From Nitrospirota bacterium (GTDB lineage: Bacteria > Nitrospirota > Leptospirillia > Leptospirillales > Leptospirillaceae): a stretch of DNA of 64,000 nt. Below the pieces are notes generated by a model. That model ran no database searches, had not been told where the DNA came from, and saw only the letters and a list, made by a program, of their open reading frames with translations. Shown in pieces: positions 60,265-64,000 of this stretch. The position numbers were made by a program, and so were the translations under genes. How positions within the stretch are numbered: the stretch's first letter is position 1; each line of letters starts with the position of its first letter. The stretch is from positions 52,737-116,736 of the forward strand of contig DAHVAL010000004.1 of the NCBI GenBank assembly GCA_027314645.1, given 5' to 3'.

Positions 60265-60525
60265 TTAATCGACCTCCCGAAAAACGAACCGATAGACGAT
60301 CCACACAAGAAGCCCGGCAAAAATGGACACCCCTCCCGCCAATACACCTTTGGGCCCACTGGCCATCATGAAAAAGAAAAAGACAGCGACCGCCAACCCC
60401 CCGATGAAATACCGAAAGAGCCCGAACCATTCCTTTCGGTTCATCGGCTCTTCGGTGGGTTTTTCATCAGAATCTGCGGGATCCAAGGAATCGAGTTTTT
60501 TTTCCTCTTCCATTGCACTCTCCAT
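60265..60525 (-). CDS. Small membrane protein, hypothetical
   Basis: Acidic N-terminus and two TM segments (FRYFIGGLAVAVFFFFMMAS; LAGGVSIFAGLLVWIVYRFVF). Confidence 0.6.
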   Translation of the reverse strand: MESAMEEEKKLDSLDPADSDEKPTEEPMNRKEWFGLFRYFIGGLAVAVFFFFMMASGPKGVLAGGVSIFAGLLVWIVYRFVFREVD

Positions 60526-60684: not shown

Positions 60685-62556
60685 ATGGATGGACCGATGG
60701 AAAAAGCATCCCCCTATCCTCCTCATTTGGCAGAAAAACTAACACTGCTCCCAGACGCTCCTGGTGTGTACTTGATGAAGGAAAGCTCCGGAAGCGTCCT
60801 CTACGTTGGCAAATCGAAAAGCTTGAAGGACCGGGTGCGGTCCTATTTTCAAAAAGCCCGGCCCGCGTCTCCCAGAATTCGAAAGATGACAGATCGGGTC
60901 AGCACCATTGAGACCCTGGTCACACGCACCGAACTCGATGCCCTCATTCTTGAAAATACCCTCATCAAGAAATATCGTCCCAGCTTCAATGTCTTGTTTC
61001 GGGATGACAAGACCTATCCCTACCTGCGTTTGTCCTGGTCTGAAAAGTTTCCCCGGCTAAGCGTCACGCGAAGGGTCTTGCCTGGAGGCGATCTCTATTT
61101 CGGTCCGTTCGCAAATCCTGGCGCCCTGCGGGAGACCATAAAATCCATTTCCAGGTTGTTTCCATTGGCCTCTTGCACCCTCGACCTTGAAAAAACGATC
61201 GAACGGCCTTGTATCGAATACCAGATCCACCGGTGCCTCGGTCCGTGTGCAGGTCTCGTTCACCCGGAGGACTATCGGAAGATGGCTGAAGGCGTTCGTC
61301 TGTTTCTGGAAGGGAAGAACAAAGACCTGGAAGTTCATTTTCATGCCGAAATGCAGCGATATGCCCAGGCGCTCGAATTTGAAAAGGCCGCGATGGTTCG
61401 CCAAAGATTGGCAAGCATCAAAACGGTTCTCGAACGTCAAACAGTCGAATTTTCCCTTCGCCATTCCATTGATGCCATCGCCTTGGTCCAGGAGCACTCC
61501 AATGTTCAGATTCAACTTCTGGCAATCCGGAATGGCGCCGTTTCCGGACGAAGGGCGGTTCATCTCAAGAATCCTGAGGATGATACGCCAGAAGACCTTC
61601 TCGTGGCCTTTCTCGAACAGCATTATTCCCAAGAAAACATTTTGCTGCCGGACGAAATCCTCCTCTCCCATTCCCTTACCCCTTCCACGCTCATATCTCT
61701 CGGATGGATAACCGAAAAGAAGGGTGAACGCGTAATTCTTCAGTTTCCCAAACGAGGAGAAAGGAAGTTCGTGCTGGATCTCGCTCTGAACAATGCGCGG
61801 GAGGCGCTTCGGGAACGGGTGAAAAGTCAGGAAGACCGTCTCCGCACCCTCGAAGAGGTGCAAGAGCTCCTTTCCTTGCCCGTCTTGCCCCGATCGATCG
61901 GATGCGTCGACATTTCCAATACCGGCGACGCCTATCCAGTCGCCTCCTATGTCGTCTTCGTCGAAGGGATGCCCGACAAACAACGGTACCGGCGCTTCAG
62001 AATTCACTACAGCAAAGGACAGGACGACTTCAAAATGCTTGCCGAAGTCATGCGTCGGCATTTCGACGACCAGCCCCTGCCGGACCTTCTTCTCATTGAC
62101 GGAGGGGCCCCCCAACTGCGCGCTGTCATGAGCGCCTTCAAAGAAATGGGGATTTCACCTCGCCCGTCCCAAGTGATGGGGCTCGCCAAGGAACGCTCGA
62201 GAACGGGTCACCTTGAACGGATTGTGGGGGGAGACACCCCCGAGCCGCTCATCCTTCCCCCGCACCGGGCGTCGACTCACTTGCTCCTCCGCGTTCGGGA
62301 CGAAGCGCATCGATTTGCCAACACATACCATCGAAAGGTCCGCGAGGAGGCCTTCACCCGTTCGAGGCTCCTCGAGATTCCTGGAATCGGCCCGTCCCGC
62401 GAAAAACAGCTGATTCAGTCATTTGAATCTGTGGAACGCTTGAAGGCGGCTTCCGTTGAAGATATCTCCCGACAATGCTCGCTTCCCAAAGGGTTGGCGG
62501 AAAAAATCCTTGCCGCATTAAAAGAAGAACCGAAGGAAGAGACGGGGATCGACTGA
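60685..62556 (+). CDS. uvrC: Excinuclease ABC subunit C
   Basis: PDAPGVYLMKESSGSVLYVGKSKSLKDRVRSYF; GCVDISNTGDAYPVASYVVF; C-terminal HhH (LLEIPGIGPSREKQLIQSF). Confidence 0.97.
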   Translation: MDGPMEKASPYPPHLAEKLTLLPDAPGVYLMKESSGSVLYVGKSKSLKDRVRSYFQKARPASPRIRKMTDRVSTIETLVTRTELDALILENTLIKKYRPSFNVLFRDDKTYPYLRLSWSEKFPRLSVTRRVLPGGDLYFGPFANPGALRETIKSISRLFPLASCTLDLEKTIERPCIEYQIHRCLGPCAGLVHPEDYRKMAEGVRLFLEGKNKDLEVHFHAEMQRYAQALEFEKAAMVRQRLASIKTVLERQTVEFSLRHSIDAIALVQEHSNVQIQLLAIRNGAVSGRRAVHLKNPEDDTPEDLLVAFLEQHYSQENILLPDEILLSHSLTPSTLISLGWITEKKGERVILQFPKRGERKFVLDLALNNAREALRERVKSQEDRLRTLEEVQELLSLPVLPRSIGCVDISNTGDAYPVASYVVFVEGMPDKQRYRRFRIHYSKGQDDFKMLAEVMRRHFDDQPLPDLLLIDGGAPQLRAVMSAFKEMGISPRPSQVMGLAKERSRTGHLERIVGGDTPEPLILPPHRASTHLLLRVRDEAHRFANTYHRKVREEAFTRSRLLEIPGIGPSREKQLIQSFESVERLKAASVEDISRQCSLPKGLAEKILAALKEEPKEETGID

Positions 62557-64000
62557 TGTTACTACCAATAATCGTTATGATTGTTGGGCTCTCATGGGTT
62601 TCGGGCTCCCTCTTCTTTCGGCGGGAGATCGATCCGGTCTATCACCAGTTTCCTCTTTTGTCCAGCATGGTGATTCTCTTCTTAGTGGCGCTCCACGCGA
62701 CGGTCCTTCTCACCATCGGCAGAAGTCTCGGTCGCCCCTATCTTCCGACAAAAAAGAGGGGGGACCCCAAAGGGATTCCTCCGCCTTCGCATTTCTTTGT
62801 CACAATTTGGAGCATTCCCTCTCTCCTCCTGATCGGGGCCGGCTTCCTGTTTGGTGCATCCGACTGGCCTTTGTCCATAGCATTCTGGGCCATTGGCGGG
62901 ATCATTCTTCTTTCCTCTCTTTGCTTTCTCCTGATTCCAACACAGGTTCATTCCGAAAATGCCCAAGGCGACATTGTTTTTACGCCCAATCCGGTTCGCA
63001 TGGCTCCCAAAGCGGTCTACTTCTGGAGTTCTTCCAATGTGTACGGGTCCTTCTTCCTCATTGCAGGGGCCATGCTCAAAGCGACGGCGGCCTTCAGTGC
63101 GATGATCAGTATCGGAACCGGAATAGGATGGCTTGCGGGGGCGATGATTCTATCCATCGTCGCCCTTCTTCGCATGGGAATCGGAGGAGATGATCATGGA
63201 GTCTCAAAAACAAAAATGTTGGTTCCGGAGGAAAATTATACCCAAATCAGCGGGGGCGGGGAGATCAAGAACGAACTTGCCCAAATCCTCTCCCAGGTCG
63301 CGTCTGCCCAACAATCTATGGGAAGCGTCCCTAATGGCATCCTTTTGACGGGGGAGTCCCCCGTCAGTCATCTCGTTTACGCTCGAGCCCTTTCGGGCGA
63401 ATTTCGACGTCCGTTTTACCCATTCTCACTGAAATCCCTTCTTGGAGTCGATCCCAAGGCCTTGGACAATTCCTGGAAGGGGTTTCTTGTCAAGATAAAG
63501 CCTTTCAATCCTCTGGTCATTTATATCGAAGATTACGGCTCCACCATTTCCATGGTCACCAACTCCAATCCCCAAGGGCTCAACAATCTCAATTTTTTTC
63601 TCTCGCACCTTTCCAAAAACAGAACGCATCTCCTGATTGCCTCCGCAGAAAAGGCGGACAATCTTCCAAAGCCCTTCGTGACCCCGCCCATCATTCATTG
63701 GATTCTTCCGGTTCCTTTGCCAGACATGGAAATGAGACAATCCATTCTTGGAAAATTCCTGCTCGAGGAGACAAAAAAACAAGAACTCCTTCCGGGAGAC
63801 ATCCCTTTGTTGACACCTGAGATGGTCAGAGAGTTCGATCTTGGAAAGCTCGCGGCCCTCATGGAGGGTTTTAAACCGGAAGACATTCGCGACGTCGTCA
63901 CCCACAGCAGCGATTACGCAAAAAAGCTTCGACGGTCCCTCCGCCAACTTGATGTGGATGTCGCCATACGGAGAAAAGCCCAAAACTGGAAAGATCCGAC
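62556..64000 (+). CDS. Polytopic membrane protein with degenerate FtsH-like AAA domain; 3' end beyond window
   Basis: ATG overlaps the uvrC TGA (TGATG). Hand translation is open to 64000: MLLPIIVMIVGLSWVSG...YTQISGGGEIKNELAQIL...NGILLTGESPVSHLVYARALSGEFRRPFYPF...PLVIYIEDYGS... Confidence 0.75.
   Translation, partial: MLLPIIVMIVGLSWVSGSLFFRREIDPVYHQFPLLSSMVILFLVALHATVLLTIGRSLGRPYLPTKKRGDPKGIPPPSHFFVTIWSIPSLLLIGAGFLFGASDWPLSIAFWAIGGIILLSSLCFLLIPTQVHSENAQGDIVFTPNPVRMAPKAVYFWSSSNVYGSFFLIAGAMLKATAAFSAMISIGTGIGWLAGAMILSIVALLRMGIGGDDHGVSKTKMLVPEENYTQISGGGEIKNELAQILSQVASAQQSMGSVPNGILLTGESPVSHLVYARALSGEFRRPFYPFSLKSLLGVDPKALDNSWKGFLVKIKPFNPLVIYIEDYGSTISMVTNSNPQGLNNLNFFLSHLSKNRTHLLIASAEKADNLPKPFVTPPIIHWILPVPLPDMEMRQSILGKFLLEETKKQELLPGDIPLLTPEMVREFDLGKLAALMEGFKPEDIRDVVTHSSDYAKKLRRSLRQLDVDVAIRRKAQNWKDP

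Follow-up and report, generated by a model that had tools for sequence, protein, structure and literature searches.

A candidate membrane scaffold with three degenerate AAA modules, encoded next to uvrC

The ORF at the end of the window (the whole stretch of DNA analysed, 64,000 nt) appears to be the 5′ half of a gene that encodes an inner-membrane protein of about 1025 aa, in which six transmembrane (TM) segments would be followed by three dead AAA modules (D1, D2 and D3), the whole acting as a non-hydrolysing scaffold or adaptor. Judged from sequence, the chances that this reading is right are about even; a role as scaffold or adaptor, rather than motor, seems the most likely one.

The locus and its distribution

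The target ORF (62556-63998, + strand, 481 aa) is open to the end of the window, and its ATG shares one base with the uvrC TGA (62554-62556), both as described in an earlier note on this DNA. The contig itself (C44, with the window at G000:C44:52737-116736) stops at the window end, so that the assembly, and not merely the window, truncates the ORF and with it the protein.

60685..62556, + strand: uvrC, the upstream gene, its stop overlapping the target start codon; within a few bases of the target start in 19/19 homologous loci
62556..63998, + strand: N-terminal 481 codons of the predicted ~1025-aa membrane triple pseudo-AAA protein; 3′ end lost at the contig end

Retrieval of the 3′ continuation, which that note had proposed, succeeded in part. 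The 3′ third of the gene was found at the end of a different contig of this genome (G000:C69:74290-74856(-)), in a frame open to the contig end and 57% identical to homolog residues ~829-1017, while the middle, about 1 kb (about 350 codons) between the C44 and C69 ends, is absent from the assembly.

In the window phoH is followed directly by ybeY; ftsY comes after, then uvrC and the target. A small ORF of 86 aa with two hydrophobic stretches lies between ftsY and uvrC (60265-60525, − strand); similar ORFs occur at the same spot in other genomes of the family, and a Pfam search with it gave no match. In sister genera an ORF of 540-560 aa separates phoH from ybeY (L047:1880-3505, L051:2638-4323); it possibly encodes a 7TM-HD protein and is absent in the window.

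The source genome's own family (f1), probably kin of the iron oxidiser Leptospirillum (Leptospirillaceae), was sampled with 21 genomes, the source and 20 relatives. The gene is present in all 20 relatives and full-length in 19 (1022-1030 aa), the copy in G007 being split over two contigs. With a profile of the TM region, searched over 396 genomes of the phylum, the target was found in 21/21 family members and in none of the 375 others, apart from one weak match (G217, E 7e-5) judged spurious, a 77-aa frame containing a stop. Beyond the phylum, coverage extended to plasmids, among which the TM region had no matches, and to contigs scanned with the single target protein (close-relative patterns), of which one matched. 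In the PDB the TM region had no meaningful match. One homolog is found in record DAHXNG010000052.1 ("Nitrospirae bacterium").

The target abuts or overlaps uvrC in 19/19 homologous loci, and its identity between genomes tracks that of uvrC (r = 0.97, 36 pairs of 9 sequences). Together with its presence in 21/21 genomes, this indicates a vertically inherited core gene. The constant position after phoH-ybeY-ftsY-uvrC could also be taken to suggest a scaffold for membrane-protein biogenesis, with a client tied to these operon neighbours. This is quite unlikely, however, as the neighbours are housekeeping genes of unlike roles (uvrC belongs to DNA repair) and co-location says little.

Downstream of the target, genes vary between genera. 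In genus g1 a convergent gene for a hydrophobic protein of 284 aa overlaps or adjoins the 3′ end of the target (L036:8339-9190(-), L118:7440-8294(+)), and a Pfam search with the protein gave no match; other genes take its place in g2-g5, perhaps thiC. Also beside the target 3′ end, frames at L118:7012-7443 adjoining a run of N yield GDLNPHGFPRQILSLVRLPFRHSR on translation, as typically results when a tRNA gene is translated like a coding sequence.

Membrane part and assignment of the modules

The earlier note had counted about six hydrophobic segments, and hydropathy of the family alignment also gave six, listed here with the loop after the second.

62559..62615, + strand: TM1, residues ~2-20
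62655..62723, + strand: TM2, residues ~34-56
62724..62795, + strand: TM2-TM3 basic loop, mean 5.7 K+R vs. 0.2 D+E, predicted cytoplasmic by the positive-inside rule
62796..62858, + strand: TM3, residues ~81-101
62874..62942, + strand: TM4, residues ~107-129
63027..63095, + strand: TM5, residues ~158-180, boundaries soft
63105..63179, + strand: TM6, residues ~184-208

From the six segments and the basic loop, the N and C termini are both predicted to be cytoplasmic.

The full-length protein has three AAA-type modules after the TM part, not one. The window sequence by itself stays below the Pfam AAA cut-off (E 0.049, 14.5 bits against 21.2), but with 20 family members the assignment appears secure: PF00004 is matched in 20/20 (best E 2.1e-21) and PF07724 (AAA_2), in the region of D3, in 19/20 (best E 3.2e-15). 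The best PDB matches of the D1 profile are p97/Cdc48 chains (E about 1e-26), and D1 also matches the FtsH profile at 97.9% probability, aligned across 223 columns. D2 (residues about 486-670) matches Cdc48/p97 chains in the PDB (E about 6e-11), TIGR01243 in 19 members, and the FtsH profile at 96%. D3 (residues about 708-1010) matches ClpB D2 structures (E about 2e-24) and, nearly end to end with the small domain included, the Clp profile (99.8% over 272 columns). By these profiles D1 is FtsH/Cdc48-like, D2 Cdc48-like and D3 ClpB-D2-like. The FtsH-like AAA module on a polytopic protein that the earlier note had proposed thus stands as the degenerate D1, but it is one of three, with p97/Cdc48 as its nearest structures. 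The AAA fold rests on profiles because AlphaFold runs on a full-length homolog and on D1 alone gave low mean pLDDT (33.2 and 39.1); with only two sequences as input each, these runs were uninformative.

By profile similarity the target falls within the AAA superfamily, as an inactive member, and the match to a known non-AAA family that the note had named as a refuting outcome did not occur. Nor does an M41 (HEXXH) domain follow, for which the note had advised a check: none was matched in the full-length homologs, which run on into D2 and D3, and the sole M41 match of the source genome is a separate FtsH. A weak AAA cross-match in PADLOC, to IetA only, was dismissed as evidence of a defence function.

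Comparison with known systems places the protein outside each of them. Like FtsH it is predicted to be membrane-anchored with a cytoplasmic AAA module, but it has six TM segments rather than two, lacks M41, carries two extra AAA modules and has lost all D1 catalytic motifs; it reaches 36.8 bits against the 600 cut-off of the FtsH NCBIfam equivalog. As in Cdc48/p97 and other type II AAA proteins there are two tandem classical AAA modules, D1 and D2 both matching p97, but the target adds a membrane domain and a third, ClpB-type module and has no intact active site (TIGR01243, 25.1 bits against 802.65). D3 resembles the second AAA module of ClpB/Hsp100, the only region to match the ClpB equivalog (46.4 bits against 1232.1), but it is fused to a membrane protein, without N-domain or middle domain, and its motifs are degenerate (see below). 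By these comparisons the target belongs to none of the three families FtsH, Cdc48 and ClpB.

In chloroplasts, selection maintains the inactive FtsH-related proteins FtsHi and Ycf2 as components of membrane complexes (PMC8197885). By analogy, it is these chloroplast envelope proteins that the target most resembles in its presumed mode of working; FtsHi, however, owes its name to the lost protease site. We know of no ClpB-like module in FtsHi/Ycf2 proteins. EccC/EssC of type VII secretion, also a membrane protein, carries several ATPase domains in series, of which some are degenerate. A degenerate ATPase domain has been reported in EccC5 (PMC11154593). Unlike the target modules, those of EccC/EssC are FtsK-type ATPases of a different branch, and one is active.

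State of the active sites

Motifs were compared between 19 homologs and controls comprising 28 FtsH and 20 Clp sequences. The D1 features in the window are as follows.

63213..63998, + strand: D1, degenerate FtsH/Cdc48-like AAA module by profile matches, residues about 219-485
63351..63374, + strand: D1 Walker A position by alignment, GESPVSHL in the window; GxSxxGRT-like in most homologs, Lys in none
63516..63533, + strand: D1 Walker B position by alignment, VIYIED in the window (DE to ED; EN or xD in homologs)
63681..63701, + strand: D1 arginine-finger position by alignment (RPGRFDR in FtsH), TPPIIHW in the window
63834..63974, + strand: D1 lid and, from the alignments, a strongly conserved RRSLRQLDxDVxIRRK stretch into D2

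The motifs quoted in the earlier note were all located (NGILLTGESPVSHL, which ends at 63374, PLVIYIEDYG at around 63510-63542, and a lid-like region after about 63717), and its description of D1, with Walker A turned into GESPVSHL, the Walker B DE into ED and RPGRFD missing, is borne out by the alignment. The note had further asked whether the degeneracy is conserved, and an intact Walker A is found in no homolog; sequencing error as the source of the broken motifs is ruled out, since they are degenerate in all of them. In homologs the D1 Walker A Lys is R, Q or C, although most retain G-x4-G-R. Sensor-1 Asn and the pore loop are lost from D1, and both finger arginines are absent in 19/19, replaced by PxxxW with an invariant Trp. 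The window copy is eroded further at Walker A than its homologs, which argues that D1 has no need of nucleotide.

D2 has Arg for the Walker A Lys and DP for the Walker B DE, each in 19/19; its first finger arginine is retained and its pore loop deleted. In D3 the Walker A Lys is retained in 18/19 and the next Thr lost in 19/19, and Walker B is DN in place of DE in 19/19 (Asp retained in all); the pore loop is deleted, and neither the arginine finger nor the sensor-1 Asn is preserved. The catalytic Glu is thus replaced in all three modules.

Retention of the D3 P-loop Lys and Walker B Asp, and the full-length alignment with Clp D2, might be read as a slow but active ATPase, in which D3 would bind and hydrolyse ATP with unusual residues and move the membrane part. 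That D3 has invariably lost its catalytic Glu and P-loop Thr, along with finger, sensor and pore loop, makes this decidedly improbable. Because the D3 P-loop is near-complete and most homologs preserve G-x4-G-R in D1, nucleotide may nonetheless still be bound or weakly hydrolysed.

In the scaffold reading, the six TM helices would carry a cytoplasmic chain D1-D2-D3 that, its catalytic residues and pore loops being gone along with most of the arginine fingers, would neither hydrolyse ATP nor thread substrates. It would form a fixed scaffold beneath the membrane, perhaps ring- or tower-shaped, on which other proteins dock, chiefly through D2; in D3 a nucleotide might still be bound in a structural or sensing role. 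Loss of the arginine fingers could also mean that no ring forms at all. The docked partner may be FtsH, which in chloroplasts forms mixed complexes with FtsHi, or some other client.

A closer tie to FtsH is conceivable, with D1 inserting into or capping FtsH hexamers and tuning substrate choice, like FtsHi in chloroplast FtsH12 complexes. D1 does match the FtsH profile, mixed active and inactive FtsH complexes are known in chloroplasts (PMC8197885), and an intact, separate FtsH is encoded in every family genome searched, bar one incomplete genome. Such a subunit or regulator is still unlikely: the best D1 structures are p97 chains, the arginine fingers and pore loop that face neighbours or substrate in FtsH rings are gone from D1, the TM domain is unlike that of FtsH, and the gene is not linked to the true ftsH. 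Clp ATPases are likewise found in all family genomes searched, and since both they and intact FtsH are encoded separately, the target is not their replacement.

Selection and meaning for the family

Whole-protein dN/dS is 0.065-0.104 in six pairs, with the lowest values, 0.010-0.037, in D2; purifying selection is strong along the entire chain. As the least AAA-like and most constrained module, D2 is the one best placed to provide a binding surface. The further erosion of D1 Walker A in the window copy could be taken as a sign that an old AAA membrane protein is decaying into a relic and being lost. The selection data contradict this and make it highly improbable, with dN/dS near 0.07, the frame intact in 19/19 full-length loci and the gene kept in 21/21 genomes.

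No published description of such a protein was found in the literature searched, which covered few subscription papers. Tentatively, and with somewhat less than even confidence, the target is proposed to represent an undescribed, lineage-wide bacterial family, in which six TM segments are joined to three dead AAA modules, two of the classical AAA branch and one of the Hsp100 branch. The whole would serve as a static platform at the membrane, the bacterial counterpart of pseudo-AAA components in the chloroplast envelope machinery. If so, inactive AAA assemblies would be retained as membrane scaffolds in bacteria too, and modules of the classical AAA and Hsp100 types would be able to fuse in one chain. 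Linkage to uvrC and presence throughout the family make the gene easy to find, delete or tag in culturable relatives, and the role of pseudo-AAA proteins outside plastids would then become testable.
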